NCBI GenBank assembly: GCA_958295755.1
Contig: OY282367.1
Location: 392,294 to 456,293, forward strand
DNA length: 64,000 bases
From: an uncultured Acidimicrobiales bacterium
Lineage (GTDB): Bacteria; Actinomycetota; Acidimicrobiia; Acidimicrobiales; Hopanoidiivorantaceae
Direction of reading: 5' to 3'
Shown here: positions 5,937-53,307 of the stretch, piece after piece
Layout: every line of letters begins with the position of its first letter
Position numbering within the stretch: position 1 is the stretch's first letter
Program-made: the position numbers and the translations under genes
Notes under the pieces: generated by a model
The model's database searches: none
Told to the model about the DNA's origin: nothing
Seen by the model: only the letters and a program-made list of their open reading frames with translations

Positions 5937-5945
5937 TGATATAAT
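5937..5945 (+). promoter_or_regulatory. extended -10 box of the first LRR gene
   Basis: TGATATAAT fits the extended -10 consensus TGnTATAAT. It lies about 75 bases before the upstream ORF start at 6020. No good -35 is seen, as expected for extended -10 promoters. Confidence 0.5.
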
Positions 5946-6019: not shown

Positions 6020-6130
6020 ATGTTCACTCAATCAAATAGAAGGTCAGTTGTAGAAAGCTACAGGAAGCGTGGATTTTTGCGTTCGCAACCAGCTATGGCA
6101 CTAGCACAACGGGGGGGGGTGTGTCGATGA
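6020..6130 (+). CDS. leader ORF running through the poly-G tract, out of frame with the LRR gene
   Basis: This 36-codon ORF starts at an ATG preceded by AAAGGA at good spacing and ends in TGA inside the LRR gene start. Its 3' part contains the G9 tract. One more G (or two fewer) would join it in frame to the LRR protein, giving a 734-residue product with a basic N-terminal extension. In the homologous gene at 8306 the corresponding leader is in frame. I therefore read it as the switched-off 5' end of the LRR gene or a translated leader, not an independent protein. Confidence 0.55.
   Translation: MFTQSNRRSVVESYRKRGFLRSQPAMALAQRGGVCR
6111..6119 (+). repeat. G9 homopolymer tract
   Basis: Nine consecutive G sit eight bases before the signal-peptide ATG at 6127. 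Tracts of this length are prone to slipped-strand mispairing. G-rich RNA can also pair with the anti-Shine-Dalgarno CCUCC by allowing one G-U pair, so the tract may double as a ribosome-binding site. Confidence 0.9.
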
Positions 6131-8223
6131 GAGACTTTACGCGCGGTCTCTCGCGGCTAATAGTGGCTACCGTTGCCTTGGCTACGGCGGCTACCGCTTT
6201 GGTTGGTGTTAGCTCACAGGTAGCTACAGCTCAGATCGCTGATCTTGATCCTGATCTCTGTACGACTACATACAAGCCCCCTTCTCCTGGTGATGATCCT
6301 GGATCTCTGTTAGCACAGGGCTTATATACAGGGGAGGACTGTCGCATAATTGTAGCTTGGCGCAACTCTGTTGTGAGCCACCCAGATTCTGTTATCGGAT
6401 CCGACCACCCGATGGCACTGTGGGGTTCTAGCAGCCAAGAAAAATTTGACACATGGGACGGGCTTACGGTTTCTGATATTAATGGGACACCCGTCATTAC
6501 TGAAATTGACCTTAGAAATAAGGGTTTAGCAGGTTCGCTTCCCGGAGAGCTACCAGATTTGAAGGTGCTTCGGCTTAGGGCAAACTTTCTCACTGGAGAG
6601 TTGCCTGCCTGGGTCTATACTTCTAATTCATTGGAAATCTTAGAGTTATCATTCAATCGGTTCAGTGGAGCTATAGCGGGTGAGCGCTTTAATGCTCCTG
6701 AGCTAGCCCATTTGATTCTTGAGTCAAATCGTTTTTCTGGCACACTGCCGAATTTCAATTTAACTAGGGTACCGAAACTGAGAAATTTGGTTTTGAGTAG
6801 TAATCTATTATCAGGTCCGATACCGGCTGGTTGGAGTGGTTTTGCTGACGGCAGAGGGATGCAACGTCTAGATATTGCCGATAATAATATTTCAGGAAAT
6901 CTGCCTGCCTGGATTTCCAATCTCACATTCGCTCGCACTCCAGTGCCAACCTGGACAACCTATCGGCCAGGGACAGGGTACTGGTGGCAGTACACTGTTG
7001 ATTGGCAAAATAATAGGCTTTGCGTACCTGCTAATTTTTTGATACCCCCATATTATAGAAACGACCAGACCGTTGCTCGAGTCCTACTATCTTTGGAACC
7101 GCAGAGATGCCCAGATGGTCGGGCGGGTATTATAAAGCCTGTAGACAACCTACAGACTGAGGTAGTAGATGTGCAAGTAGATGCTACTGGGAAACCAGCT
7201 ACTGACCCGAATGCGGGTGCGATGGTAGGAACCGTTAAGGGTCTCAAGGTCACTTGGGATAAGCCAGCTGACTTTTTATCAGTATCACAATCTAATGTTA
7301 AGTGGCGGTATGCTGTGCAGTCGTATTTGACTGTACCCACACGAGATAATGAAGTTCCTCACCAAGACGGTACTACGTCCTATAGATACTGTCCGCCAAA
7401 TTATCTCCGAGCACGCACTCCATGGAATCCGACTGATACAACATTTGAAGTCATAATAATTCGCGATGACTGCCGTATAACAGATACAAATACCCTCTAT
7501 GACCCCACAAAATATACCGTTGATATCGCAACGGCATTCGCCAAGGAAGCTGGATACCACAAGACGTTTCTTCCAGATGCACTTATTGAAGCGGCACTAT
7601 ATACCGGAGCGGTAGGAGTCCAAAATACTTGGGGTATTTATATGGCAGATGACGGCCAAAAAACATATCAAGACGTAGCTGATGTGGTGCGCTTAGCCAA
7701 TAATCTCAATATTTGGGTTTGGGATGCTGCCAACCAAATCTGGATAGAACGAGACCCACAAGACCAAGATTTTTCTTCGCTTAACTTAGACCCCGGAACA
7801 GCTCTAGCTTTCCAGAAGCGTGTGCCTGTCTCTTGGCTGGCTCAGGCTGGCTTGAGTACCGCAGATGAGGACACGCCTGTTCAACTTCAAAACGGCTGGA
7901 ATATCATCAGCGCAGGAGGCGATGCCACACGCCCAGATGGCAACACCGGTGCCTTCTTCATAGATGAAAACACTCTCTTAGACTGCGGCTCCTCACAGGG
8001 AGTTATCGCCATAATGCGATACAGTGCCGGCAGTGAAAGTTTTGATATGGAGTTGCCGTGCCATCCAAGCACTGAGGCAGATCTGACAAGCAATCCGAAT
8101 ATCGGCACTATTGAAGAGATAGAAGAAGCCGACACCTTATTCATCTACTTCAGCTCGGTGCTGCCAGTAACAATCCAATGGGACGCAACCAATAACAAAT
8201 ATGTAGTCCCCACTACTAGCTGA
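6127..8223 (+). CDS. exported leucine-rich-repeat protein, plus-strand cluster copy 1
   Basis: A 698-residue secreted protein. Residues 1-35 form a signal peptide (RGLSR, hydrophobic core, VATA cut site before QIADL). Around residues 120-265 are five to six plant-type LRRs of the form LxLxxNxLxGxIP, for example LVLSSNLLSGPIPAGW. A beta-rich region with a fibronectin-like VTWDKPAD strand follows, and then a C-terminal region of about 200 residues with WGIYMADD, NIWVWDA, GWNIISAGGDATRP and a paired-cysteine loop (DCGSSQG ... ELPCHPS). Paired Cys at the N-terminus and after the LRRs fit disulfides outside the cell. A role in adhesion or surface recognition is inferred. Translation is probably set by the upstream G9 tract; the upstream start is out of frame in this sequence. 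Confidence 0.8.
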   Translation: MRDFTRGLSRLIVATVALATAATALVGVSSQVATAQIADLDPDLCTTTYKPPSPGDDPGSLLAQGLYTGEDCRIIVAWRNSVVSHPDSVIGSDHPMALWGSSSQEKFDTWDGLTVSDINGTPVITEIDLRNKGLAGSLPGELPDLKVLRLRANFLTGELPAWVYTSNSLEILELSFNRFSGAIAGERFNAPELAHLILESNRFSGTLPNFNLTRVPKLRNLVLSSNLLSGPIPAGWSGFADGRGMQRLDIADNNISGNLPAWISNLTFARTPVPTWTTYRPGTGYWWQYTVDWQNNRLCVPANFLIPPYYRNDQTVARVLLSLEPQRCPDGRAGIIKPVDNLQTEVVDVQVDATGKPATDPNAGAMVGTVKGLKVTWDKPADFLSVSQSNVKWRYAVQSYLTVPTRDNEVPHQDGTTSYRYCPPNYLRARTPWNPTDTTFEVIIIRDDCRITDTNTLYDPTKYTVDIATAFAKEAGYHKTFLPDALIEAALYTGAVGVQNTWGIYMADDGQKTYQDVADVVRLANNLNIWVWDAANQIWIERDPQDQDFSSLNLDPGTALAFQKRVPVSWLAQAGLSTADEDTPVQLQNGWNIISAGGDATRPDGNTGAFFIDENTLLDCGSSQGVIAIMRYSAGSESFDMELPCHPSTEADLTSNPNIGTIEEIEEADTLFIYFSSVLPVTIQWDATNNKYVVPTTS

Positions 8224-8274: not shown

Positions 8275-8280
8275 TATAAT
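8275..8280 (+). promoter_or_regulatory. -10 box of the second LRR gene
   Basis: A perfect TATAAT within GCTAAGACTATATAAT. The same 16 bases precede the third LRR gene. It places transcription start near 8287, between this box and the GGGAG ribosome-binding site before the ATG at 8306, which argues against the ATG at 8279 being the start. Confidence 0.6.
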
Positions 8281-8305
8281 GGGCATAGACGAAGGGAGCA
8301 ATGAA

Positions 8306-10444
8306 ATGTCGATTCAAGCTATTGAAGAACATAGCCAGCACAACCTATCGCGGTTGCTAGTAGATGGTACTAGCACAGCTGGGGGGGGGGTGTCGATGAG
8401 AGATTTTACGCGCGGTCTCTCGCGGCTAATAGTGGCTACCGTTGCCTTGGCTACGGTGGCTGCCGCTCTGGTTGGTGTTAGCTCACAGGTAGCTACAGCT
8501 CAGATCGCTGATCTTGATGCTGATCTCTGTGCGACTACATACAAGCCCTCTGCTGATGCTGGATCTCGGACAGAGGCGGACTGTCGCACGATAGTTGCTT
8601 GGCGCAACTCTGTTGTGAGCAATACGAATTCTGTTATCGGATCCACTCACGAGATGGCACTGTGGGGTGCTGGCAGCCAAGAAAAATTCAACACATGGGG
8701 CGGCCTTACGGTTTCTGATATTAATGGGGAACTCGTCATTACTGGAGTTGACCTTAGAAATAAGGGTTTAGCAGGTTCGCTTCCCGGAGAGCTACCAGAT
8801 TTGAAGGTGCTTCGGCTCAGGTCAAACTTTCTCACAGGAGAGTTGCCTGCCTGGGTCTATACTTCTACTTCATTGGAAATCTTAGAATTAGCATATAATC
8901 GGTTCAGTGGAGCTATAGCGGGTGAGCGCTTTAATGCTCCTGAGCTAGCCCATTTGATTCTTGGGGCAAATCGCTTTTCTGGGGCGTTGCCGAATTTCGA
9001 TTTAACTAAGTTACCGAAACTGAGAAATCTGGTTTTGAGCCGTAATCTATTATCAGGTTCGATCCCGGCTGGTTGGAGTGGCTTTGCTGACGGCAGGGGA
9101 ATGCAACGTCTAGATATTGCCTATAATAATATTTCAGGAAATCTGCCTGCGTGGATTTCCAATCTCAAATTCGCTGACTTTCCAGCACCAAGCTGGACAG
9201 CGTTTCGCCCATCATATTGGCATTACACTATTAATTGGCAAAATAATAGGATTTGCGTACCTGCTAGTTTGGTGATACCCGAGTATAGGAAACTCAACGG
9301 GACCGTTGGTCAAGTCGTAATGTATCTTGAACCGCAAAGATGCCCAGATAGTCGGGCGGGTATTATAAAGCCTGTAGAAAACCTACAGACTGAGGTAGTA
9401 GATGTGCAAGTAGATGCTAATGGGAGACCAGCTACTGACCAGTATGCGGGTGAGATGGTAGCAACTGTTAAGGGTCTCAGAGTCACTTGGGATAGGCCAG
9501 CAGACTTTTTACCAGAACAATCTTCCAATGTTAAGTGGTTGTATTCTGTGTGGTCGTATTTGAGTGTACCCACATCAGATAATGAAGTTCCTCAACAAGA
9601 CGGTTCTACGTTCTATAGATACTGTCCGCCAAATCTTCTCCGAGCAGGCACTCCATTTCTCACGACTGAAACAACATTTGAAGTCATAATAATTCGCAAT
9701 AACTGCTCTATAACAGATCCAAATACCCTTTATGACCCCACAAAATATACCGTTGATATCGCAACGACATTCGCCTTGAGAGTTCCATGGAGCCCAAGCG
9801 TTCCAATAATATATAACGCGGTAGTATATACCGGAGCGGTAGGAGTCCAAGGTCCTTGGGGTATTTATATGGCAGATGATGACCAAAAAACATACAGAGA
9901 TGTAGCTAATGTGGCACGCCTAGCCAATAATCTCAATATTTGGGTTTGGGATGCTGCCAACCAAATCTGGATAGAACGAGACCAACTAGACCAAGATTTT
10001 TCTTCGCTTAACTTAGACCCCGGGACAGCTCTAGCTTTCCAGAGGCGTGTGCCTCTCTCTTGGCTGGCTGAGGCTGGCTTGAGTACCGCAGATGAGGATA
10101 CGCCTGTTCAACTTGAAAACGGCTGGAATATCATCAGCGCAGGCGGCGATGCCACACGACCCTCAGGCAACACCGGTGCCTTCTTCATAGATGAAACCAC
10201 TCTCATAGACTGCGGCTCCTCACAGGGAGTTATCGCCATAATGCGATACAGTGCCAGAAGCGAAAGCTTTGACGCGGAGTTGCCGTGCCATCCAAGCGTT
10301 GAGGCAAGCTTGACAAGCAATCCGAATATCGGCACTATTGAAGAGATAGAAGAAGCAGACACTCTTTTCATGTACTTCAGATCGGTGCTGCCAGTAACAA
10401 TCCAATGGGACACCGACAAGTACGTCGTCCCCACCACTAGCTGA
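8306..10444 (+). CDS. exported LRR protein, plus-strand cluster copy 2 (upstream start in frame, ON state)
   Basis: A 712-residue protein if translation begins at the ATG at 8306, which has AGGGAG upstream. Residues 1-30 form an N-terminal extension (MSIQAIEEHSQ ... STAGGGVS), followed by the RDFTRGLSRL signal peptide cleaved after VATA. The extension is encoded through a G10 tract that keeps the frame. The mature part repeats copy 1: N-terminal Cys pair, LRRs (for example LVLSRNLLSGSIPAGW), a VTWDRPAD strand, WGIYMADDD, NIWVWDA and the GWNIISAGGDATRP domain ending at VVPTTS. A second start directly after the tract (ATG at 8396) could also be used. Likely surface-exposed; ligand unknown. Confidence 0.82.
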   Translation: MSIQAIEEHSQHNLSRLLVDGTSTAGGGVSMRDFTRGLSRLIVATVALATVAAALVGVSSQVATAQIADLDADLCATTYKPSADAGSRTEADCRTIVAWRNSVVSNTNSVIGSTHEMALWGAGSQEKFNTWGGLTVSDINGELVITGVDLRNKGLAGSLPGELPDLKVLRLRSNFLTGELPAWVYTSTSLEILELAYNRFSGAIAGERFNAPELAHLILGANRFSGALPNFDLTKLPKLRNLVLSRNLLSGSIPAGWSGFADGRGMQRLDIAYNNISGNLPAWISNLKFADFPAPSWTAFRPSYWHYTINWQNNRICVPASLVIPEYRKLNGTVGQVVMYLEPQRCPDSRAGIIKPVENLQTEVVDVQVDANGRPATDQYAGEMVATVKGLRVTWDRPADFLPEQSSNVKWLYSVWSYLSVPTSDNEVPQQDGSTFYRYCPPNLLRAGTPFLTTETTFEVIIIRNNCSITDPNTLYDPTKYTVDIATTFALRVPWSPSVPIIYNAVVYTGAVGVQGPWGIYMADDDQKTYRDVANVARLANNLNIWVWDAANQIWIERDQLDQDFSSLNLDPGTALAFQRRVPLSWLAEAGLSTADEDTPVQLENGWNIISAGGDATRPSGNTGAFFIDETTLIDCGSSQGVIAIMRYSARSESFDAELPCHPSVEASLTSNPNIGTIEEIEEADTLFMYFRSVLPVTIQWDTDKYVVPTTS
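8381..8390 (+). repeat. G10 homopolymer tract inside the leader of LRR copy 2
   Basis: Ten G between codons of the N-terminal extension and five bases before the signal-peptide ATG at 8396. With ten G the upstream ATG at 8306 is in frame (distance 90 bases); nine or eleven G would break it. Confidence 0.92.
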
Positions 10445-10492: not shown

Positions 10493-10500
10493 GGGGGGGG
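10493..10500 (+). repeat. G8 tract in the spacer upstream of the third LRR promoter
   Basis: Eight G lie in the noncoding spacer about 65 bases before the TATAAT at 10565. The spacer also holds a second degenerate copy of the GTGGCCAGTCCTTG segment seen before gene 2. A length change here could alter promoter geometry, or it may be a relic of a tract from a deleted gene copy. Confidence 0.7.
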
Positions 10501-10564: not shown

Positions 10565-10570
10565 TATAAT
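10565..10570 (+). promoter_or_regulatory. -10 box of the third LRR gene
   Basis: TATAAT in the same GCTAAGACTATATAAT context as gene 2. The following 5' leader carries an inserted micro-repeat (ATAACATAAT and AATGGTATAACATAATGGTATAT) of about 40 bases before the shared AGACGAAGGGAGCAG ribosome-binding segment. Confidence 0.6.
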
Positions 10571-10632: not shown

Positions 10633-10818
10633 ATGTCGATTCAAGCTATTGAAGAACCTATTGCAGAACATAGCCAGCACAACTTCTCGGGTTTGCTAGT
10701 AGATGTTACTAGCACAACGGGGGGGGGTGTCGATGAGAGATTTTACGCGCGGTCTCTCGCGGCTAATAGTGGCTGCCGCTGCCTTGGCTACGGTGGCTGC
10801 CGCTCTGGTTGGTGTTAG
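10633..10818 (+). CDS. leader ORF out of frame with the third LRR gene
   Basis: The start is homologous to the in-frame start of gene 2 (MSIQAIEEP..AEHSQHN), with the same GGGAG ribosome-binding site and a 4-codon insertion. After the G9 tract it runs in the wrong frame and ends at 10818 inside the signal-peptide region. Eight (or eleven) G would restore a 680-residue fusion. I interpret it as the OFF-state 5' end of the LRR gene and not as a separate functional protein. Confidence 0.55.
   Translation: MSIQAIEEPIAEHSQHNFSGLLVDVTSTTGGGVDERFYARSLAANSGCRCLGYGGCRSGWC
10719..10727 (+). repeat. G9 homopolymer tract before LRR copy 3
   Basis: Nine G followed by TGTCG and the signal-peptide ATG at 10733. 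The distance from the upstream ATG to this ATG is 100 bases, so the upstream start is out of frame. Confidence 0.92.
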
Positions 10819-12676
10819 CTCACAGGTAGCTACTGCTCAGATCGCTGATCTTGATCCTGATCTTTGTGCGACCACATATAAGCCTTCTGTGGGTGCTGGA
10901 GATCGGACAGAGGCGGACTGTCGCACAATTGTAGCTTGGCGCAACTCTGTTGTGAACCACCCAGATTCTGTTATCGGAGCCACCCACACGCTGGCACTGT
11001 GGGGCACTGGTGGCCAAGTAAAATTCCACGCATGGGCCGGGCTTACGGTTGGTTATGTTAATGGGGAACGCGTTATTACTAAAGTTGGTATAGTGAGGCA
11101 GGGTCTAGCAGGTCCGCTTCCCGGAGAGCTACCAGATGTGCAGGTGTTTCGGCTTAGGTCAAACTTTCTTACAGGAGAGTTGCCTGCCTGGGTCTATGAT
11201 TCTGCCTCATTGGAAATCTTTGACGTTGCATACAATCAGCTCAGTGGGGCTGTAGTAGGTGAGCGCTTTGACGCTCCTGAGCTAGCCCATTTGTTTCTTG
11301 GCGGAAATCGCTTTTCTGGGGCGTTGCCGAATTTCGATTTAACTAAGCTGCCGAAACTGAGAAATCTGTATTTGACCCGTAATTTTTTCTCAGGTGCTAT
11401 CCCACGTGGTTGGAGGGACTTTGCTGACGGCAGAGGAATCCAGCGTATAGATATAGCATATAATAATATTTCAGGAAATCTGCCTTCATGGATTTCCGAC
11501 CTCAGATTCGCTAATGCTCCTGAGCCAAGCTGGACAGAGTTTAATCAAAATTATCCATACTCTCTTGCTTGGTCATATAACAAGCTTTGCATACCTTCTA
11601 ATTTTGCGATACCAGCATATAGGAAACTTAACAGGCAGTATGCTACTGTCGCAATGTATTTGGAACCTCAGAGATGCCCAAGTCGATCGCTATCAAGGCC
11701 TGTGGAAAATCTCCAGTTCGTGGCAGTAGATGCTGATGGGCAACCAACTGATGAGAATCCTGTAGGTCTAAAAGTAAGCTGGAGTAAACCCCAGGGCATG
11801 AATGGAGCAGCTTATAGTGTGTGGACATATTTGAATGTCCCACGAACAGAGAATGAAACTAGTACAAATGGTGTCATTACGTACGAGTACTGCCCGGGTT
11901 GGTATCTTCCGAAAGGCATTGCCTATACTGTTGATACAGAACTTTCAGTCACCATAACTGGAGCAGATTGTAGAGTAGCCACAGAGCAAGCTTTTGACCC
12001 CACAAAATATACTGTCGCTGTTGTACCGATAACTTACAATGGGAGAACTGCATATACTGGATATCATGGAATTTCAAATAATTGGGGTATTTATATGGCA
12101 GATGATGACCAAAAAACATATGCAGACGTTGACAGTGTGATGAGTCTTGGGCTTGATCGGAGCAATATTTGGGTTTGGGATGCTCTTAATCAAGTCTGGA
12201 TAGAAAGAAATCGAGAAGATCAAGATTTTGCCTCACGAAACTTAGAACCCGGCACCGCGCTAGCTGTCCGGAGGCGTGTGCCTCTCTCATGGCTGGCTCA
12301 GGCTGGCTTGAGTACCGCAGATGAGGACACGCCTGTCCAACTTGAAAACGGCTGGAATATCATCAGCGCAGGCGGCGATGCCACACGACCCTCAGGCAAC
12401 ACCGGTGCCTTCTTCATAGATGAAAACACTCTCATAGACTGCGGCTCCTCACAGGGAGCTATTGTTATTATGCGATACAGTGCCAGAAGTGAAAGCTTTG
12501 ACGCAGAGTTGCCGTGCCATCCAAGCGTTGAGGCAAACTTGACAAGCAATCCGAATATCGGCACTATTGAAGAGATAGAAGAAGCAGACACCCTTTTCAT
12601 CTATTTCAGATCGGTGCTACCAGTCACAATCCAATGGGACACCGCCAGTAGCAAATACATCCCCACCCTCAGCTGA
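10733..12676 (+). CDS. exported LRR protein, plus-strand cluster copy 3
   Basis: A 647-residue protein from the signal-peptide ATG (MRDFTRGLSRLIVAAAALAT, cut after VATA). It has the same architecture as copies 1 and 2 but is more diverged in the LRRs (LYLTRNFFSGAIPRGW) and is about 45 residues shorter in the middle beta region. The C-terminal region is nearly the same (NIWVWDALNQVW, GWNIISAGGDATRP, DCGSSQG, ELPCHPS). The frame-matched ATG at 10703 lacks a ribosome-binding site. In the present sequence the leader start is out of frame, so output depends on internal initiation or on tract slippage. Confidence 0.8.
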   Translation: MRDFTRGLSRLIVAAAALATVAAALVGVSSQVATAQIADLDPDLCATTYKPSVGAGDRTEADCRTIVAWRNSVVNHPDSVIGATHTLALWGTGGQVKFHAWAGLTVGYVNGERVITKVGIVRQGLAGPLPGELPDVQVFRLRSNFLTGELPAWVYDSASLEIFDVAYNQLSGAVVGERFDAPELAHLFLGGNRFSGALPNFDLTKLPKLRNLYLTRNFFSGAIPRGWRDFADGRGIQRIDIAYNNISGNLPSWISDLRFANAPEPSWTEFNQNYPYSLAWSYNKLCIPSNFAIPAYRKLNRQYATVAMYLEPQRCPSRSLSRPVENLQFVAVDADGQPTDENPVGLKVSWSKPQGMNGAAYSVWTYLNVPRTENETSTNGVITYEYCPGWYLPKGIAYTVDTELSVTITGADCRVATEQAFDPTKYTVAVVPITYNGRTAYTGYHGISNNWGIYMADDDQKTYADVDSVMSLGLDRSNIWVWDALNQVWIERNREDQDFASRNLEPGTALAVRRRVPLSWLAQAGLSTADEDTPVQLENGWNIISAGGDATRPSGNTGAFFIDENTLIDCGSSQGAIVIMRYSARSESFDAELPCHPSVEANLTSNPNIGTIEEIEEADTLFIYFRSVLPVTIQWDTASSKYIPTLS

Positions 12677-16403: not shown

Positions 16404-18485
16404 TTAGCTAGTGGGTAATTTGTATTTGTTTTCGCCTGCGTCCCAAACGATGTTCACAGGGAGAACAGAGCTGAAGTATACGAATAAGCTGTCGTATTCT
16501 TCTAGCTCTTCAATGGTGTCCATATTGCCTCTAGCTGTAAGAGCAGCTTCAGCACTTGGGTGACACGGCAGTTCTGGATCAAATTGCCCGGTGCGAGAAG
16601 TATAGCGTAAAACTACAAGCACTCCTGTATTTGAGTCACAGTCCAAGAGGCTGATATCATCAAAGAAGAAAGCACCGTCATCGTCATCTGGGCGTGTGGC
16701 ATCGCCTCCTGCGCTGATCATATTCCAGCCATTTGAAATCTGAATGGGCAAGTCTTCGTCTGCTGAGCTTAGACCAGCAACGGCTAGCCAAGCAGGCGGG
16801 CGACTAGCTTGGGTTATGATGGCTGTTCCTGGTTCTAGGTAGACAGAATCCAATGAGAGGTCTGCTAGTGCCCATTGGACCCAATCCTGGTTATTTGCAT
16901 CCCATGAATAGTAACCATTGTTGAGAGACAGACCAATCTTGAAGCCGATGTCTTGCACAGACCTTCGTTCTTTGACTTGCACTATATTCCAGCCTGATTC
17001 TACACCTGTCGGTCCCGTGTAGCTATTGGCGCGAAAGCCGTCGGCTCTAGGGCCACCTACCTCATAGATAGTGCGGATAGCGACGGCGAACTTATTGGGA
17101 TCAAACCGGCAATTATTATCCGGATTAGTATCAACATTATTCGGATGAGTATCAGGGTCTATTGTGGCACTCATAAATCCGTTACTATCTGGTGGGTTGG
17201 TTGCCTCCGTTACATCCAGATTACAGTATTCACCAAGACTGACCGTATCGTCTATTTGATCTGGTACGAGCTTCGCAGGACGCACCCAGTATATGTAGCC
17301 CGAGCCGCTGAGAGGTTTCCACGAGACTCTTAGGGCATTGTCGTTTGACGGAGGAATTTCATACTGCATGTCAGTTACTGGAGGGGGTGAATAAATGGAG
17401 TCATTCTCCTTGGTCGGACACCTGTTACGAACGAAGTCCACCTGAACTGAAGCAGCTGTTGTAGTACCGGCCTCATATAGGGTTGGCATAGTGAAGCCGT
17501 CGGGGATGCATAAACGGTTACCTGCGAAGCTCATGCGATTTCTGAACTTATTCCAAATCTTTCCGGTGCTTCCGAACTTGACATTTTTAACCCAGTCAGG
17601 AATGTCCCCAGTTAATCGATTTACGGCTAGGTTCAGATCTTTGATTGCTCGCCCATCTGCAAAAGCACTATACCCGGCCGGGATAGGACCTGTAAAAGCG
17701 TTGCCATTGAGTCGCAGATATGTAAGTCCAGTATTTATGGCTTGGCCCAATGAATCTCTGAATTTAAAATCAGGCAAGCTACCGCGGAAAGCATTATTAC
17801 TCAAATTCACCAATCGTAGTTTTGTGGAAAGAAATCTCTGGCCATCCACGGTGCCTGAAAGGGCAGATCCTCCTAGCTGAAGAATATTCAAGCTAGGGAG
17901 ATTATAAATCCATTCTGGGAATTCTCCAGTGAAACGATTGCCAGTAAAATAAACAGCTGTTAGATCTCTAAAAAGGTTTGAATCGGTACCCGGGGTGCCG
18001 GGGTCATCCACATTCAGGTTGGGGATTGGTCCATATAGATAGGCACCCCAATTTCTGTTTTGCCGACCATTACGTTGTACCCAATGTGAAATATTTATTT
18101 GACGAACCAGGAATGGACTGCCAGAGACATCTAAGCCTAGCCAATTGTTCATTCTTCTTGCATCTCCGGTGCCCGTGCCCCACTGGGCAATGTTATGGAG
18201 TGCTAAGTTTGAATGTCCTTCATAGGCAAATATATCGTTACGGAACTTCACCAGCGCCTTGCATTGGGCCACTGTGAGATCTGTAGTTCTACCATCTTCG
18301 GGCTTGTAGCCATCGGTGCTTTCACACAGGCTGGCATCAAGCATATTAGGAGCTTGTGCAACAGCCTGCTGTGAGCTGACGGCGGTGAAGCTTGTTGCAG
18401 CTACAGCTAGCACCAGCAGGGATACAAGAAGGAAGGCTGATCTTCCTTTGGGGGTAGTCGAAGTGGCTTGTGCATGATGTGACAC
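16404..18485 (-). CDS. exported LRR protein A, minus-strand cluster (tract between SD and start)
   Basis: A 693-residue secreted protein starting at GTG. The signal peptide covers about residues 1-44 (GRSAFLLVSLLVLAVAATS ... QQAVAQA). Next come the N-terminal Cys pair, plant-type LRRs (for example LNLAVNRLTGDIPDWV) around residues 140-300, and a beta-rich region containing WKPLSGSGYIYWV. The C-terminal region is shared with the plus-strand cluster: GWNIVQV, YYSWDANNQDW, GWNMISAGGDATRP, LDCDSNTG, ELPCHPS. The strong Shine-Dalgarno AAGGAGGA is separated from GTG by a run of ten C, so tract length sets the spacing. The first 683 residues are identical to protein B; only the C-terminal tail (GENKYKLPTS) differs. 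Likely cell-surface; function unknown. Confidence 0.85.
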   Translation of the reverse strand: MSHHAQATSTTPKGRSAFLLVSLLVLAVAATSFTAVSSQQAVAQAPNMLDASLCESTDGYKPEDGRTTDLTVAQCKALVKFRNDIFAYEGHSNLALHNIAQWGTGTGDARRMNNWLGLDVSGSPFLVRQINISHWVQRNGRQNRNWGAYLYGPIPNLNVDDPGTPGTDSNLFRDLTAVYFTGNRFTGEFPEWIYNLPSLNILQLGGSALSGTVDGQRFLSTKLRLVNLSNNAFRGSLPDFKFRDSLGQAINTGLTYLRLNGNAFTGPIPAGYSAFADGRAIKDLNLAVNRLTGDIPDWVKNVKFGSTGKIWNKFRNRMSFAGNRLCIPDGFTMPTLYEAGTTTAASVQVDFVRNRCPTKENDSIYSPPPVTDMQYEIPPSNDNALRVSWKPLSGSGYIYWVRPAKLVPDQIDDTVSLGEYCNLDVTEATNPPDSNGFMSATIDPDTHPNNVDTNPDNNCRFDPNKFAVAIRTIYEVGGPRADGFRANSYTGPTGVESGWNIVQVKERRSVQDIGFKIGLSLNNGYYSWDANNQDWVQWALADLSLDSVYLEPGTAIITQASRPPAWLAVAGLSSADEDLPIQISNGWNMISAGGDATRPDDDDGAFFFDDISLLDCDSNTGVLVVLRYTSRTGQFDPELPCHPSAEAALTARGNMDTIEELEEYDSLFVYFSSVLPVNIVWDAGENKYKLPTS

Positions 18486-18495
18486 GGGGGGGGGG
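18486..18495 (-). repeat. C10 tract (G10 on plus strand) between Shine-Dalgarno and GTG of LRR A
   Basis: Ten C on the coding strand immediately precede the GTG start; AAGGAGGA occupies 18496-18503. The genes at 23264 and 25726 have only five C at the corresponding place. Confidence 0.9.
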
Positions 18496-18590
18496 TCCTC
18501 CTTAGTCGTTTGCTTGTTTTAGTATCTGCTTGATTAGCACTATAGCGTTAGTGTTGCAGTATTTGCACTTTATTATATATTCTCTAGCTT

Positions 18591-18806
18591 CAGGGGCGGC
18601 ATCGGCGGCGACAAACTCAATCCCTTGAGAGTTGCCAGCACTCGGATCTCGCCGAGCTAGCTCCAGCATCTAACATCAGTTGGAATTGGTTCGCTGAGAA
18701 AGTCTCGCGTCATTCGCCGCGAGACAATAGCGTCTTCTAAGCTTTGGTTTGGTTTTTCAATGAGAATAGTCTAAGAGGCCACAGTCTAAGAGGCGCAACC
18801 TATTAG
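18591..18806 (-). pseudogene. chimeric relic: formylglycine-enzyme fragment plus nitroreductase 5' fragment
   Basis: In the 321-base spacer upstream of LRR A, bases 18591-18607 (CAGGGGCGGCATCGGCG) resemble the repetitive insert of the formylglycine-generating enzyme gene near 26028-26070. Bases 18611-18780 closely match the nitroreductase 5' region at about 16190-16370, with small deletions and substitutions that break the frame. The promoter-proximal part (18496-18590) holds the Shine-Dalgarno and TATAAT/TATAGT-like boxes on the minus strand. Confidence 0.75.
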
Positions 18807-20882
18807 CTATTGGGTAATGTATTTGTTGTTCGTGGCGTCCCAAACGATGTTCACAGGGAGAACAGAGCTGAAGTATACGAATAAGCTGTCGTATTCTTCT
18901 AGCTCTTCAATGGTGTCCATATTGCCTCTAGCTGTAAGAGCAGCTTCAGCACTTGGGTGACACGGCAGTTCTGGATCAAATTGCCCGGTGCGAGAAGTAT
19001 AGCGTAAAACTACAAGCACTCCTGTATTTGAGTCACAGTCCAAGAGGCTGATATCATCAAAGAAGAAAGCACCGTCATCGTCATCTGGGCGTGTGGCATC
19101 GCCTCCTGCGCTGATCATATTCCAGCCATTTGAAATCTGAATGGGCAAGTCTTCGTCTGCTGAGCTTAGACCAGCAACGGCTAGCCAAGCAGGCGGGCGA
19201 CTAGCTTGGGTTATGATGGCTGTTCCTGGTTCTAGGTAGACAGAATCCAATGAGAGGTCTGCTAGTGCCCATTGGACCCAATCCTGGTTATTTGCATCCC
19301 ATGAATAGTAACCATTGTTGAGAGACAGACCAATCTTGAAGCCGATGTCTTGCACAGACCTTCGTTCTTTGACTTGCACTATATTCCAGCCTGATTCTAC
19401 ACCTGTCGGTCCCGTGTAGCTATTGGCGCGAAAGCCGTCGGCTCTAGGGCCACCTACCTCATAGATAGTGCGGATAGCGACGGCGAACTTATTGGGATCA
19501 AACCGGCAATTATTATCCGGATTAGTATCAACATTATTCGGATGAGTATCAGGGTCTATTGTGGCACTCATAAATCCGTTACTATCTGGTGGGTTGGTTG
19601 CCTCCGTTACATCCAGATTACAGTATTCACCAAGACTGACCGTATCGTCTATTTGATCTGGTACGAGCTTCGCAGGACGCACCCAGTATATGTAGCCCGA
19701 GCCGCTGAGAGGTTTCCACGAGACTCTTAGGGCATTGTCGTTTGACGGAGGAATTTCATACTGCATGTCAGTTACTGGAGGGGGTGAATAAATGGAGTCA
19801 TTCTCCTTGGTCGGACACCTGTTACGAACGAAGTCCACCTGAACTGAAGCAGCTGTTGTAGTACCGGCCTCATATAGGGTTGGCATAGTGAAGCCGTCGG
19901 GGATGCATAAACGGTTACCTGCGAAGCTCATGCGATTTCTGAACTTATTCCAAATCTTTCCGGTGCTTCCGAACTTGACATTTTTAACCCAGTCAGGAAT
20001 GTCCCCAGTTAATCGATTTACGGCTAGGTTCAGATCTTTGATTGCTCGCCCATCTGCAAAAGCACTATACCCGGCCGGGATAGGACCTGTAAAAGCGTTG
20101 CCATTGAGTCGCAGATATGTAAGTCCAGTATTTATGGCTTGGCCCAATGAATCTCTGAATTTAAAATCAGGCAAGCTACCGCGGAAAGCATTATTACTCA
20201 AATTCACCAATCGTAGTTTTGTGGAAAGAAATCTCTGGCCATCCACGGTGCCTGAAAGGGCAGATCCTCCTAGCTGAAGAATATTCAAGCTAGGGAGATT
20301 ATAAATCCATTCTGGGAATTCTCCAGTGAAACGATTGCCAGTAAAATAAACAGCTGTTAGATCTCTAAAAAGGTTTGAATCGGTACCCGGGGTGCCGGGG
20401 TCATCCACATTCAGGTTGGGGATTGGTCCATATAGATAGGCACCCCAATTTCTGTTTTGCCGACCATTACGTTGTACCCAATGTGAAATATTTATTTGAC
20501 GAACCAGGAATGGACTGCCAGAGACATCTAAGCCTAGCCAATTGTTCATTCTTCTTGCATCTCCGGTGCCCGTGCCCCACTGGGCAATGTTATGGAGTGC
20601 TAAGTTTGAATGTCCTTCATAGGCAAATATATCGTTACGGAACTTCACCAGCGCCTTGCATTGGGCCACTGTGAGATCTGTAGTTCTACCATCTTCGGGC
20701 TTGTAGCCATCGGTGCTTTCACACAGGCTGGCATCAAGCATATTAGGAGCTTGTGCAACAGCCTGCTGTGAGCTGACGGCGGTGAAGCTTGTTGCAGCTA
20801 CAGCTAGCACCAGCAGGGATACAAGAAGGAAGGCTGATCTTCCTTTGGGGGTAGTCGAAGTGGCTTGTGCATGATGTGACAC
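18807..20882 (-). CDS. exported LRR protein B, near-identical copy of A
   Basis: A 691-residue protein with the same GTG start, AAGGAGGA Shine-Dalgarno and ten-C spacer as LRR A. It is identical in sequence to A for 683 residues and then ends in TNNKYITQ. That tail is shared with protein C, which indicates that the duplication breakpoint lies in the conserved 3' end and arose by unequal exchange between 3' ends. Domains are as in A: signal peptide, LRRs, beta region, GWNMISAGGDATRP C-terminal domain. Two loci with the same protein but independent tracts could give dosage control or a template for gene conversion. Confidence 0.85.
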   Translation of the reverse strand: MSHHAQATSTTPKGRSAFLLVSLLVLAVAATSFTAVSSQQAVAQAPNMLDASLCESTDGYKPEDGRTTDLTVAQCKALVKFRNDIFAYEGHSNLALHNIAQWGTGTGDARRMNNWLGLDVSGSPFLVRQINISHWVQRNGRQNRNWGAYLYGPIPNLNVDDPGTPGTDSNLFRDLTAVYFTGNRFTGEFPEWIYNLPSLNILQLGGSALSGTVDGQRFLSTKLRLVNLSNNAFRGSLPDFKFRDSLGQAINTGLTYLRLNGNAFTGPIPAGYSAFADGRAIKDLNLAVNRLTGDIPDWVKNVKFGSTGKIWNKFRNRMSFAGNRLCIPDGFTMPTLYEAGTTTAASVQVDFVRNRCPTKENDSIYSPPPVTDMQYEIPPSNDNALRVSWKPLSGSGYIYWVRPAKLVPDQIDDTVSLGEYCNLDVTEATNPPDSNGFMSATIDPDTHPNNVDTNPDNNCRFDPNKFAVAIRTIYEVGGPRADGFRANSYTGPTGVESGWNIVQVKERRSVQDIGFKIGLSLNNGYYSWDANNQDWVQWALADLSLDSVYLEPGTAIITQASRPPAWLAVAGLSSADEDLPIQISNGWNMISAGGDATRPDDDDGAFFFDDISLLDCDSNTGVLVVLRYTSRTGQFDPELPCHPSAEAALTARGNMDTIEELEEYDSLFVYFSSVLPVNIVWDATNNKYITQ

Positions 20883-20892
20883 GGGGGGGGGG
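20883..20892 (-). repeat. C10 tract before the GTG of LRR B
   Basis: Same length and position as the tract before LRR A. Equal lengths suggest either very recent duplication or a length that is favoured at both loci. Confidence 0.9.
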
Positions 20893-20987
20893 TCCTCCTT
20901 AGTCGTTTGCTTGTTTTAGTATCTGCTTGATTAGCACTATAGCGTTAGTGTTGCAGTATTTGCACTTTATTATATATTCTCTAGCTT

Positions 20988-21203
20988 CAGGGGCGGCATC
21001 GGCGGCGACAAACTCAATCCCTTGAGAGTTGCCAGCACTCGGATCTCGCCGAGCTAGCTCCAGCATCTAACATCAGTTGGAATTGGTTCGCTGAGAAAGT
21101 CTCGCGTCATTCGCCGCGAGACAATAGCGTCTTCTAAGCTTTGGTTTGGTTTTTCAATGAGAATAGTCTAAGAGGCCACAGTCTAAGAGGCGCAACCTAT
21201 TAG
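20988..21203 (-). pseudogene. second chimeric relic of flanking genes
   Basis: The spacer upstream of LRR B is the exact positional copy (plus 2397) of the relic at 18591-18806: a short formylglycine-enzyme-like piece, then a broken nitroreductase 5' end. Together with the promoter-proximal part at 20893-20987 it accounts for the whole 321-base spacer. Confidence 0.75.
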
Positions 21204-23264
21204 CTATTGGGTAATGTATTTGTTGTTCGTGGCGTCCCAAACGATGTTCACAGGGAGAACAGAGCTGAAGTATACGAATAAGCTGTCGTATTCTTCTATC
21301 TCTTCAATGGTGTCCATATCGCCTCTAGCTGCAAGAGCAGCTTCGGCACTTGGGTGACACGGCAGTTCTGCATCAAATTGCCCGGTGCGAGAACTATAGC
21401 GTAAAACAACAAGCACTCCTCTATTTGAGTCACATTGAGAGAGGCTGTCATCAAAGAAGAAAGCAGCGTCATCGTCATCTGGGCGTGTGGCATCGCCTCC
21501 TGCGCTGATCATATTCCAGCCATTTGACATCTGAATGGGCAAGTTTTCGTCAGCTGAGCTTAGACCGGCAACGGCTAGCCAAGCAGGCGGGCGACTAGCT
21601 CGGGTTATGATAGCTGTTCCTGATTCTAGGTAGACAGAGTCCAGTGAGAGGTCTTCTAGTGCCCATTGGACCCACTCCTGGTTATCTGCATCCCATGAAT
21701 GGTATCTACCGCTGAGAGACAGACCAATCTTGAAGCCGATGTCTTGTACAGCCCTTCGTTCTTTGACTTGTACTATATTCCAGCCTGATTCTATACCTGT
21801 CTCTCCCATGTAGGCATTGGCGTAGTTGTAGTCGGCTCTAGGGCCGCCTACCTCATAGATAGTGCGGACAGCGACCGCGAACTTATTGGGATCAAACCGG
21901 CAATTCGGAGTCCGCTGACTTCCTATTGTAGCACTGATAAATCCGTTACTATCTGGTGCGCTAGTTACCTCCTGAGCACAGACGTCACCATGACTGACCG
22001 TAGCGTCTATTTGATCCGGTACGAGCTTCACAGGAAGCACCCAGTACAGGTAGCCCGAGCCGCTGGCAGGAGGTTTCCACGAGACTACTAGTTCATTTTC
22101 GTCGAGCGGAGAAATTTCATACTGCAGGTCAGTTACTGGATTGGGTGCATAAATGGAGTCATTCTTTTTGGTCTGACACCTGTTACGAGAGAAGTCCACC
22201 TGAACTGAAGCAACTGTTGTAGTCCCGGCCTCATATAGGGTTGGCATAGTGAAGCCGTCGGGGATGCATAAACGGTTACCTGCGAAGCTCATGCGATTTA
22301 CGAAAAAACTCGAAACATTTTCTGCCCTACTTCTGAAACTTCTGAACTTGACATTTTTAACCCAGTCAGGAATGTCCCCAGTTAATCGATTTGCGGCTAG
22401 TTGCAGATCCCACACTGCTCGCCCATCGGCAAAAGCACTATACCCGGCCGGGATAGGACCTGTAAAAGCGTTGCTATCGAGCCGCAGAAGTACCAATCCG
22501 GTATTTATGGCTTGGCCCAATGAATTTCTGAATTTAAAATCAGGCAAGCTACCGTGGAAAGCATTACCAGCCAAATTCACCCTATGTAGGTCTGTGGCAA
22601 GAAATCTCTGGCCATCCACGGTGCCTGAAAGGGAGCCTACTTCTAGCTCAAGAATATTCAAGCCAGGGAGATTATAAATCCATTCTGGGAATTCTCCAGT
22701 GAAACGATTGCCAGTAAAATAAACCCTTCTTAGATCTCTAAAAAGGTTTGAATCGGTACCCGGGGTGCCGGGGTCATCCACATTCAGGGTGGGCATTGGT
22801 CCATATAGATAGGCATTCTTAGATCTGTTTTCGTTTTGCTTAGTACGATCAGGTGTGAACCAATGTGAAATATTTATTTCATGAACCTGGAATGGAGTGC
22901 CAAACATCCCTATGCCTTGCCAGCTGTTCATTCTTCTTGCCTCTTCGGTGCCCGTGCCCCACGTGGCAATGTTATGGGCTGCTAAGTTTTGATGTCCTTC
23001 ATAGGCAAATATATCGTTACGGAACTTCACCAGTGCCTTGCATTGGGCCACTGTGAAATCTGTAGTTCTAGGATCGACGGGCTTGTACCCAGTGGTGGTT
23101 TCACACAGGCTGGCATCAAGCATATCCGGTGCTTGTGCTACAGCCTGCTGTGAGCTGACGGCGGTGAAGCTTGTTGCAGCTACAGCTAGCACAAGCAGGG
23201 TTCCAAGCAGGAAGGCTGGTCTTTTTTGGGTGGTAGTCGAAGTGGCTTGTAGATAATGTGCCAT
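21204..23264 (-). CDS. exported LRR protein C (no long tract, probable constitutive copy)
   Basis: A 686-residue protein starting at ATG. The Shine-Dalgarno AGGAGG lies ten bases upstream and only five C occur in the spacer, so this copy should not switch readily. Signal peptide about residues 1-44 (KRPAFLLGTLLVLAVAATS ... AVAQA). LRRs, beta region and C-terminal domain follow the family, with clear divergence from A and B in the concave LRR positions and in loops (for example an insertion RSRAENVSSF). The conserved Cys pattern is kept (LCETTTGY ... AQC; RLCIP ... RCQ; QCDSNRG ... LPCHPS). Probably surface-exposed. Confidence 0.85.
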   Translation of the reverse strand: MAHYLQATSTTTQKRPAFLLGTLLVLAVAATSFTAVSSQQAVAQAPDMLDASLCETTTGYKPVDPRTTDFTVAQCKALVKFRNDIFAYEGHQNLAAHNIATWGTGTEEARRMNSWQGIGMFGTPFQVHEINISHWFTPDRTKQNENRSKNAYLYGPMPTLNVDDPGTPGTDSNLFRDLRRVYFTGNRFTGEFPEWIYNLPGLNILELEVGSLSGTVDGQRFLATDLHRVNLAGNAFHGSLPDFKFRNSLGQAINTGLVLLRLDSNAFTGPIPAGYSAFADGRAVWDLQLAANRLTGDIPDWVKNVKFRSFRSRAENVSSFFVNRMSFAGNRLCIPDGFTMPTLYEAGTTTVASVQVDFSRNRCQTKKNDSIYAPNPVTDLQYEISPLDENELVVSWKPPASGSGYLYWVLPVKLVPDQIDATVSHGDVCAQEVTSAPDSNGFISATIGSQRTPNCRFDPNKFAVAVRTIYEVGGPRADYNYANAYMGETGIESGWNIVQVKERRAVQDIGFKIGLSLSGRYHSWDADNQEWVQWALEDLSLDSVYLESGTAIITRASRPPAWLAVAGLSSADENLPIQMSNGWNMISAGGDATRPDDDDAAFFFDDSLSQCDSNRGVLVVLRYSSRTGQFDAELPCHPSAEAALAARGDMDTIEEIEEYDSLFVYFSSVLPVNIVWDATNNKYITQ

Positions 23265-23394
23265 TGGGGGATGTCCTCCTAGTCGTTTACTTGTTTTGGT
23301 TCTCTTGATTAGCAGTATAGTTTTAGCGTTGCAGTATTTGTGCCATATTATCCATTCCCTAAATTATCCACTCTCTAACTTTAGCATATGTGGT

Positions 23395-23625
23395 TCACCT
23401 TAAGCAAGTCTATCTTGCAATGCAGCGCAAGCCCAGGTGGTTGGTGGCGGTTTCGGACGATTGGGGGATGCGGGCGGCAGGGCACTTGAGGAGTGCTAGA
23501 TTGCTGAGAATTTGATTGGTTCGCTGAGAAAGTCTCGCGTCATTCGCCGCGAGGCAATAGCACTTTCTAAGCTTTGGTTTATTGATGGTTTTTCAATGAG
23601 AATAGTCTAAGAGGCAAGTCTCCTA
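23395..23625 (-). pseudogene. third chimeric relic (formylglycine-enzyme 3' end joined to nitroreductase 5' end)
   Basis: Within the 373-base spacer upstream of LRR C, bases 23395-23484 match the 3' end of the formylglycine-enzyme gene and its downstream region (25842-25931). They are joined at a GGCAGGG microhomology to a piece matching about 26107-26138, and then from about 23517 to a shortened nitroreductase 5' region ending in the ATAGTCTAAGAGGC segment. All pieces are noncoding now. The first part of the spacer (23265-23394) is the LRR C leader and promoter region. Confidence 0.78.
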
Positions 23626-23637
23626 GCTAGTGGATTC

Positions 23638-25572
23638 CTAGCTAGGGGATACTGTGTATTTGTTGTTCGTGGCGTCCCAAACGATGTTCACAGGGAGAAC
23701 AGAGCTGAAGTATACGAATAAGCTGTCGTATTCTTCTAGCTCTTCAATGGTGTCCATATTGTCTCTAGCTGTAAGAGCAGCTTCGGCACTTGGGTGACAC
23801 GGCAGTTCTGCATCAAATTGCCCGGTGCGAGAACTATAGCGTAAAACAACAAGCACTCCTGTATTAGAGCCACAGCCAGAGAGGCTGGTATCAAAGAAGA
23901 AAGCACCGTCATCGTCATCTGGGCGTGTGGCATCGCCTCCTGCGCTGATCATATTCCAGCCATTTGAAATCTGAATGGGCAAGTTTTCGTCCGCTGAGCT
24001 TAGACCGGCAACGGCTAGCCAAGCAGGCGGGCGACTAGCTCGGGTTATGATAGCTGTTCCTGGTTCTAGGTAGACAGAGTCCAGTGAGAGGTCTTCTAGT
24101 GCCCATTGGACCCACTCCTGGTTATCTGCATCCCATGAATGGTATCTACCGCTGAGACGCATACCAATCTTGAAGCCGATGTCTTGCACAGACCTTCGTT
24201 CTTTGACTTGCACTATATTCCAGCCTGATTCTATACCTGTCTCTCCCATGTAGGCATTGGCGTAGTTTAAGTCGACTCTAGAGCCGCCTACCCCATAGAT
24301 AACACCTACCTCATAGATAGTACGGATAGCGACGGCGAACTTATTGGGATCAAACCGGCAGCTATCATTCCAATGAGTATCATCGTCTATTGTGACACTC
24401 ATAAATCCGTTACTATCTGGTGAGTTAGTTGCCTCCGTTACCTCCAGAGAACATTGTTCACCATGACTGACCGTAGCGTCTATTTGATCTGGTACGAGCT
24501 TCACAGGAAGCACCCAGTACAGGTGGCCCGGGCCGCTATGAGGTTTCCACGAGACTTTTAGGGCATTGTCGTTTGACAGAGGAATTTCATACTGCAGGTC
24601 AGTTACTGGATTGGGTGCATAAATGGAGTCGTTCTTCTTGGTCTGACACCTGTTATCAGCGAAGTCCACCTGAACTGAAGCAACTGTTGTAGTACCGGCC
24701 ACATATAGGGTTGGCATAGTGAAGCCGTCGGGGATGCATAAACGGTTACCTGCGAAGCTCATGCGAGTTTTGAAATAAGGTATAATATCTCTTCCGGTGC
24801 TTGTGAACTTGACATTTTTAACCCAGTCAGGAATGTCCCCAGTTAATCGATTTGCGGCTAGGCTCAGATCTTTCACTGCTCGCCCATCGGCAAAAGCACT
24901 ATACCCGGCCGGGATAGGACCTGTAAAAGCGTTGCCATCGAGCCTCAAATTGACCAATCCGGTATTTATGGCCTCGCCCAATGAATCTCTGAATTTAAAA
25001 TCAGGCAAGCTACCGTGGAAAGCATTACCAGCCAAATTCACCAATTGTAGGTCTGTGGCAAGAAATCTCTGGCCATCTACGGTGCCTGAAAGGGCAAGTT
25101 CTAGATCAAGAAGATTCAAGCCAGGGAGATTATAAATCCATTCTGGGAATTCTCCAGTGAAACGATTGCCAGTCAAATGAACCCTTCTTAGATCTCTAAA
25201 AAGGTTTGAATCGGTACCCGGGGTGCCGGGGTCGTCCACATTAAGGTTGGGGATTGGTCCATGTAGATAGGCACCCCTATATCTGTTTTGCTGACCATTA
25301 CGTTCTTTCCAATGTGAAATATTTAGTTCATGAACCTGGAATGGACTGCCAGCCATAGTTATGCCTATCCACTGGTTCATTCTTCTTGCCTCTTCGGTGC
25401 CCGTGCCCCACTGGGCTATGGTATGGCGTGCTAAGTTTTGATGTCCTTCATAGGCAAATATATCGTTACGGAACTTCACCAGTGCCTTGCATTGGGCCAC
25501 TGTGAAATCTGTAGTTCTATGATCGACGGGCTTGTAGCCATCGGTGCTTTCACACAGGCTGGCATCAAGCAT
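23638..25572 (-). CDS. LRR protein D, mature part; frame broken by a C10 tract (OFF state)
   Basis: The open frame from 25572 encodes the complete mature LRR protein (644 residues: LDASLCESTDGYKP N-terminus, LRRs, beta region, GWNMISAGGDATRP domain, tail TNNKYTVSPS) but has no signal peptide of its own. The signal peptide lies just upstream in another frame, separated by a run of ten C. Losing one C would restore a 695-residue precursor reading QATPPPANMLDASLC across the junction, matching QAPNMLDASLC in A. The downstream frame is intact over 1.9 kb with no stops, which argues for a reversible switch and against decay. Confidence 0.82.
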   Translation of the reverse strand: MLDASLCESTDGYKPVDHRTTDFTVAQCKALVKFRNDIFAYEGHQNLARHTIAQWGTGTEEARRMNQWIGITMAGSPFQVHELNISHWKERNGQQNRYRGAYLHGPIPNLNVDDPGTPGTDSNLFRDLRRVHLTGNRFTGEFPEWIYNLPGLNLLDLELALSGTVDGQRFLATDLQLVNLAGNAFHGSLPDFKFRDSLGEAINTGLVNLRLDGNAFTGPIPAGYSAFADGRAVKDLSLAANRLTGDIPDWVKNVKFTSTGRDIIPYFKTRMSFAGNRLCIPDGFTMPTLYVAGTTTVASVQVDFADNRCQTKKNDSIYAPNPVTDLQYEIPLSNDNALKVSWKPHSGPGHLYWVLPVKLVPDQIDATVSHGEQCSLEVTEATNSPDSNGFMSVTIDDDTHWNDSCRFDPNKFAVAIRTIYEVGVIYGVGGSRVDLNYANAYMGETGIESGWNIVQVKERRSVQDIGFKIGMRLSGRYHSWDADNQEWVQWALEDLSLDSVYLEPGTAIITRASRPPAWLAVAGLSSADENLPIQISNGWNMISAGGDATRPDDDDGAFFFDTSLSGCGSNTGVLVVLRYSSRTGQFDAELPCHPSAEAALTARDNMDTIEELEEYDSLFVYFSSVLPVNIVWDATNNKYTVSPS

Positions 25573-25726
25573 ATTGGCGGGGGGGGGGTGTGGCTTGTGC
25601 TACAGCCTGCTGTGAGCTGACGGCGGTGAAGCTTGTTGCAGCTACAGCTAGCACCAGCAGGGATACAAGAAGGAAGGCTGATCTTTTTTGGGTGGTAGTC
25701 GAAGTGGCTTGTGGATAATGTGCCAT
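25565..25726 (-). CDS. signal-peptide ORF of LRR D (truncated product in the present frame)
   Basis: Starts at ATG with AGGAGGAC nine bases upstream, exactly as in LRR C. It encodes a 53-residue peptide: the family signal peptide (KRSAFLLVSLLVLAVAATS ... AVAQA), then TPPPRQYA encoded by the C tract, then TGA. Alone it would be only a secreted stub. It is the 5' part of the same gene as 23638-25572. Confidence 0.75.
   Translation of the reverse strand: MAHYPQATSTTTQKRSAFLLVSLLVLAVAATSFTAVSSQQAVAQATPPPRQYA
25579..25588 (-). repeat. C10 tract at the signal-peptide/mature junction of LRR D
   Basis: Ten C on the coding strand within codons just after the predicted signal peptidase site. The two ORF parts are offset by 154 bases (1 mod 3); nine C would put them in frame. 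Confidence 0.92.
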
Positions 25727-50450: not shown

Positions 50451-50454
50451 AGTG

Positions 50455-50548
50455 CCAAGCCAGATATTAGAACACTGAATGTTGGGGCAGTAGATATTAG
50501 AGCACAAGATATTAGGGCAGTAGATATTAGGGCATAAGGCAAGTAGCA
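50455..50548 (+). repeat. micro-repeat spacer before dapA (GCAGTAGATATTAGRGCA)
   Basis: Four degenerate copies of GATATTAGRGCA(GTA) fill the spacer between moaA and dapA. Confidence 0.8.
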
Positions 50549-50550
50549 AA

Positions 50551-51450: not shown

Positions 51451-51519
51451 CCCTCGCCTGTAGTTTTGGTGCTTGAGATTTCTGCCCGATATGGCAAGTG
51501 AAAGTATGGCTGAACTGAT

Positions 51520-53220: not shown

Positions 53221-53307
53221 TTGGAAATTAATTGGAAATGGTAGCCAGTAGCTACTAAATTTAGAGGTGGAGTAGGGGCCAGAACCTGAAAGGGACGCCG
53301 CAAGGCT

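Follow-up and report, generated by a model that had tools for sequence, protein, structure and literature searches.

Poly-G tracts between leader and signal peptide in three tandem LRR genes of an uncultured actinobacterium: candidate phase-variable loci with three frame states

Three tandem LRR genes and their G tracts

The window analysed here, a 64,000-nt stretch that is part of a single 2.29 Mb contig of an uncultured Acidimicrobiales bacterium, carries on its plus strand three tandem genes for secreted leucine-rich-repeat (LRR) proteins, each leading from a leader ATG through a G9 or G10 tract to a second ATG at which the signal peptide begins (SP ATG). Counted from the SP ATG, the encoded proteins have 698 aa (copy 1, 6127–8223), 682 aa (copy 2, 8396–10444) and 647 aa (copy 3, 10733–12676), the two other copies sharing 80% and 71% identity with copy 2. 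Profile searches matched the Pfam domains LRR_1 and LRR_8 (4e-11 and 5e-8, respectively, for copy 1). In all three copies a complete Sec signal peptide (MRDFTRGLSRLIVA...) begins at the SP ATG, 5–7 nt after the end of the tract.

The leader of copy 1 (6020–6110, beginning MFTQSNRRSVVESYRKRGFLRSQPAMALAQ...) starts at ATG 6020, which is preceded by AGGA, and ends at a G9 tract (6111–6119); it has no homology to the leaders of copies 2 and 3 except for ACTAGCACAAC adjoining the tract. In copy 2 the leader MSIQAIEEHSQHNLSRLLVDGTSTA (8306–8380) is followed by a G10 tract (8381–8390) and is in frame with the signal peptide, giving an open frame of 8306–10444. The copy 3 leader MSIQAIEEPIAEHSQHNFSGLLVDVTST (10633–10718), which precedes a G9 tract (10719–10727), is homologous to that of copy 2 apart from a 12-nt in-frame insertion, and the differences between the two are too few to test for coding constraint. 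Both of these leader ATGs have a Shine-Dalgarno (SD)-like GGGAG 7 nt upstream, located at 8294–8298 in copy 2.

On recomputation, the distances of 107, 90 and 100 nt given in the original prediction between leader ATG and SP ATG in copies 1, 2 and 3 all proved correct, and the tract lengths, which are assembly calls, were confirmed from the sequence. Copy 2 is thus the only copy in frame with its leader; a G10 tract would restore the frame in copy 1 and a G8 tract in copy 3. A change of one unit in the tract alters the frame of the ORF initiated at the leader ATG; the relevance of this hinges on initiation there. Chance origin of the tracts in the window was ruled out by a shuffle test (17 overlapping G8 matches against 1.45 expected, a number reached in 0 of 100 shuffles). 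A separate G8 run lies between copies 2 and 3 (10493–10500), outside any leader.

A second LRR cluster on the minus strand (window 16404–25726) contains three further tracts, all C10. Two are of a spacer type (18486–18495 and 20883–20892), each separating AAGGAGGA from the GTG with which one of two near-identical duplicate LRR genes begins (16404–18485 and 18807–20882, respectively), where a change in length would alter SD spacing. The third (25579–25588) lies where the signal peptide ends in the LRR gene that begins at ATG 25726; as assembled, the frame of this gene is broken and the copy is out of frame, the ORF resuming at 23638–25572. In LRR relatives from the congener (L155 and L163) the tract is also within the signal peptide and out of frame as assembled. 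The LRR family therefore shows three tract positions: leader, SD spacer and signal peptide. Matches to the LRR query also included, at several loci of the contig, open frames of great length (up to 20112 aa) that contain repeats of the LRR type.

Start sites and frame states

The SD energies of the three leader starts range from −10.0 kcal/mol (copy 1) to −11.8 kcal/mol (copy 2), compared with −9.3 kcal/mol for the best 5% of ATGs in the window. The original prediction described the leaders of copies 2 and 3 as homologous, with good ribosome-binding sites and shared promoters; homology and an SD 7 nt from the ATG were borne out, but a consensus sigma-70 scan gave no significant promoter (8 found against 9.2 expected). 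Each copy does have an exact TATAAT hexamer as a candidate −10 element, at 5940–5945 (copy 1, for which no good −35 was found), 8275–8280 (copy 2) and 10565–10570 (copy 3), and this hexamer is not enriched across the whole window. Two other starts were considered and rejected: ATG 8279, at which the mechanical ORF call of copy 2 begins, overlaps the TATAAT and has an SD energy of only −2.1 kcal/mol, and the in-frame ATG 10703 of copy 3 has a weak SD (−3.7 kcal/mol) equal to the median of all ATGs. The leader start is probably genuine, as judged from its SD, from the leader common to copies 2 and 3 and from the same architecture in other genes, described below, where the upstream start is obligatory.

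Together with TGTCG, the tract itself makes up an SD sequence in front of the SP ATG (GGGGGTG-TCG-ATG), with anti-SD pairing energies of −16.5 to −17.1 kcal/mol in copies 1–3 (−16.9 kcal/mol for the copy 2 tract before ATG 8396), the strongest SD in the locus. As poly-G scores well against any C-rich target, this energy makes a role of the tract as SD a possibility and not a demonstration. With so strong a match, the SP start may fire at any tract length, and such internal initiation could express all three copies whatever their G number. Taken further, copies 1–3 would be translated mainly from the SP ATG and all be expressed, the tract serving as an SD whose 3' edge is fixed and whose length hardly matters, and the leader being a translated or untranslated upstream ORF. 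The pairing energies, the 5–7 nt spacing and the complete signal peptides fit this explanation, as does a more distant LRR paralogue (L093, tract 1144953) with an SD-led in-frame GTG 3' of its tract. Against it, all three copies have SD-led leaders and a run of 9–10 G exceeds what an SD requires; with the tracts found elsewhere in the genome (see below), we regard it as rather unlikely, while giving it more weight than the other alternatives.

The frame resulting from each tract length gives three states: a fusion of leader and signal peptide, a stop-start overlap of the ATGA type and a long overlap. As assembled, copy 2 shows the fusion. Copy 1 is in the stop-start state, its SP start overlapping the TGA stop of the out-of-frame leader (ATGA, 6127–6130), and copy 3 is in the overlapping state, its leader continuing out of frame for 83 nt beyond the SP ATG. 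The ATGA state can also be reached by copy 2 at G9 and by copy 3 at G10. Overlaps of the ATGA type are known as an arrangement for termination-reinitiation (PMC6728339), so that copy 1 cannot be called OFF. Copy 1 as assembled has the stop/start overlap of a termination-reinitiation pair and resembles the known cases of translational coupling in combining the ATGA with an SD-like stretch before it; it differs in that the known examples are fixed gene pairs (PMC6728339), whereas here the overlap would be one of three states set by tract length. The sequence of copy 1 is therefore compatible with reinitiation.

Copy 2 had been predicted to be ON with copies 1 and 3 out of frame. The in-frame status of copy 2 stands; an OFF state of copies 1 and 3 is not supported as such. 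Likewise, the paralogues do present a mixture of frame states, but the ATGA in copy 1 and the SD-like tracts mean that clean ON/OFF switching, with copies 1 and 3 off, is not established. The view that one in-frame copy out of three is what independent switching would give carries little weight at n = 3, this outcome having a probability of 4/9 under random frames. Since the tract could also act as the SD, differences in output among the frame states may be graded rather than ON/OFF.

Tract recurrence, mismatch repair and known switches

Exact G9 runs number 32 in this genome and 39 in its congener, whereas 39 further genomes from the order have 0–9. The run-length profile of this genome comprises 33 G7, 7 G8 and 32 G9 runs, with a tandem array left out of the G7 count. 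This array (contig 50422–53534) consists of about 44 copies of a unit of about 72 bp with a G6...C7 inverted repeat, and a G7/C7 peak at 50.4–53.5 kb was accordingly excluded as a signal, being this single array. The flanks of tracts of at least nine G favour C before and T after in both genomes of the genus; for the non-redundant tracts of this genome, C precedes 34/48 and T follows 32/48, compared with about 29% and 32%, respectively, for G5–6 runs.

MutS was not found in this genome or in two further genomes of the family; the three genomes searched are 83–90% complete, and absence from one alone would be weak evidence. NucS is present in two of the three, this genome included, and the NucS of M. 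smegmatis fails to repair indels of 1–2 nt (PMC11551767). NucS and the WhiB matches obtained also speak for placement in Actinomycetota. The family-wide recurrence of the tracts, the absence of MutS and the blindness of mycobacterial NucS to 1–2 nt indels together make phase variation by slippage the best reading.

The surroundings of tracts of at least nine G or C were examined in stretches covering 100 of 113 overlapping matches, up to 2.263 Mb. Among the matches listed, 23 of 60 tracts precede a hydrophobic segment at a 5' end; random positions from these stretches do so in 3.2% of cases (p about 3e-19), which amounts to a twelve-fold concentration. Prepilin-like genes of both species show an SD-led leader, a G/C9–10 tract and then the prepilin core, and the next in-frame start is mostly inside or past the core; without a usable start after the tract, the upstream leader start is obligatory there. 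Of the prepilin-like genes with a callable leader (n = 17), eight are in frame and nine are not, an approximate split as leader choice was automatic. Ten congener prepilin-like leaders differ at 464, 505 and 672 sites by codon position, a third-position excess that is coding-like. Families of this kind (RGITLQTLIVTAVLVL), in mixed frames, occur at contig 925000–943500 (L088) and at L148, L154, L159, L169, L176 and L177. Translation of the LRR copies mainly from the SP ATG leaves unexplained why tracts of the same length stand before prepilins and export signals that have no later start, and C tracts cannot act as an SD.

The best explanation, which we hold to be moderately likely, is leader-driven frame switching, with copies 1–3 as simple-sequence contingency (phase-variable) loci. 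Their sequence makes it likely that they belong to the contingency loci, as they carry homopolymer tracts long enough to slip at the 5' end (beginning at 6111, 8381 and 10719). In the proposed mechanism, the G tract between the SD-led leader ATG and the Sec signal peptide would change length by replication slippage, and these changes would be left uncorrected because the genome has no MutS. Translation from the leader would then give, in the fused state, a preprotein that is extended by the leader and yields the same mature protein on cleavage; in the stop-start state, with the leader TGA overlapping the SP ATG, ribosomes may reinitiate; in the overlap state, leader ribosomes would run 83 nt beyond the SP start and might block or bypass it. 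The amount of LRR protein, presumably with a function at the cell surface, would thus depend on the state. Leader-driven switching has against it that leader 1 is unrelated to leaders 2 and 3 and that, unlike in Bifidobacterium breve, the SP ATG opens a complete signal peptide and is preceded by the strongest SD match of the locus.

In B. breve UCC2003, tract heterogeneity and slippage have been measured for the sortase-pilus genes bbr_0113 and bbr_1889 (PMC9187656). These genes are likewise actinobacterial and combine a short SD-led upstream ORF, a G tract and a surface protein; tract length decides ORF fusion in B. breve (PMC9187656), as it would here. The protein families differ (LRR here, LPXTG pilin there), and the second ORF in B. 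breve lacks an SD and a Sec signal. With a full signal peptide and an SD-like tract 3' of the slippage site, OFF is not guaranteed in the LRR copies. They share the SD-bearing upstream ORF of the B. breve type but, as their second ORF has a strong SD match and a complete signal peptide of its own, copies 1–3 are not classed as a B. breve-type split-ORF switch; at most, they would work like these pilus switches, the nearest known in phylum and design. Neisseria pilC is the classic analogue: it and other phase-variable poly-G/C surface genes share genic tracts of at least 9, modally 9–10, that control surface proteins by frame (PMC5953494), and differ in phylum and proteins, the position and function of the tract in the present genus being predicted from sequence.

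Replication orientation of the tracts

Among the matches listed, the strand bearing G is the leading strand of the replichore in 59 of 60 tracts of at least nine, irrespective of gene direction. The strand switches near 929.5 kb and again between 1.72 and 1.97 Mb, with dnaA at 2.037 Mb. As the tracts themselves served to place these boundaries, the count of 59/60 is somewhat flattering, yet random strands cannot give it through a free choice of two boundaries, and an artefact of sequencing would be blind to the direction of the fork. With the same boundaries, only 15 of 40 G7–G8 runs are on the leading strand (Fisher p about 3e-12 against the longer tracts), and in the congener 49/52 tracts are on the majority strand of their contig. 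Among the 23 export-type tracts listed, the coding strand carries G in 8 and C in 15, so that gene direction does not explain the rule. GC skew was discarded as a cause, the skew in these stretches being weak and of mixed sign. A literature search gave nothing that bears directly on strand-locked poly-G tracts; as evidence of novelty this is weak.

In a further alternative, the tracts would have arisen mainly through a mutational process that lengthens G runs when replication proceeds in one orientation, and their occurrence before these genes would be incidental or tolerated. Beyond the contrast between the long tracts and the G7–G8 runs just given, this agrees with the many tracts that have no obvious switch (e.g. 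111333, 282251, 1406814 and 2262980). It does not account for the twelve-fold concentration before 5'-end hydrophobic segments, again among the matches listed, or for the C-G(9+)-T flank preference, and is considered improbable. Slippage of RNA polymerase on the tract, each copy yielding mixed frames from one DNA state and none being fully on or off, is more improbable still: in principle a run of 9–10 G suffices for transcript slippage, but by itself such slippage would not favour a position before export signals.

A broader version of contingency-locus switching can be put forward tentatively, and with clearly less confidence than the switching itself. The tracts of at least nine G in this genus would form a class locked to the replication strand, arising or persisting only with the G run on the leading-strand sequence (lagging-strand template), and selection would place them before export signals, the LRR tract being both slippage site and SD of a three-state switch. 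The LRR genes would then be a natural system in which a single tract may set three translation states, and the strand rule yields a testable prediction, namely that replication orientation controls G-run growth. If phase variation is confirmed, dense poly-G switching extends to an uncultured actinobacterial genus without MutS and covers LRR proteins, prepilin-like proteins and one DNA methyltransferase. For annotation, ON/OFF calls based on tract length alone can be expected to fail in genes whose complete signal peptide follows an SD-like tract.

Tracts were also seen at the 5' ends of other genes. An N6_N4_Mtase DNA methyltransferase gene (contig 1720476–1722149) has an in-frame C14 in its 5' end and is a candidate phase-variable methyltransferase. 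A C11 tract (1099981, L092) lies near the 5' end of a gene for a HATPase_c_3 protein, and a C10 tract (1200684, L094) near that of a weak PAPS_reduct match below the cut-off.
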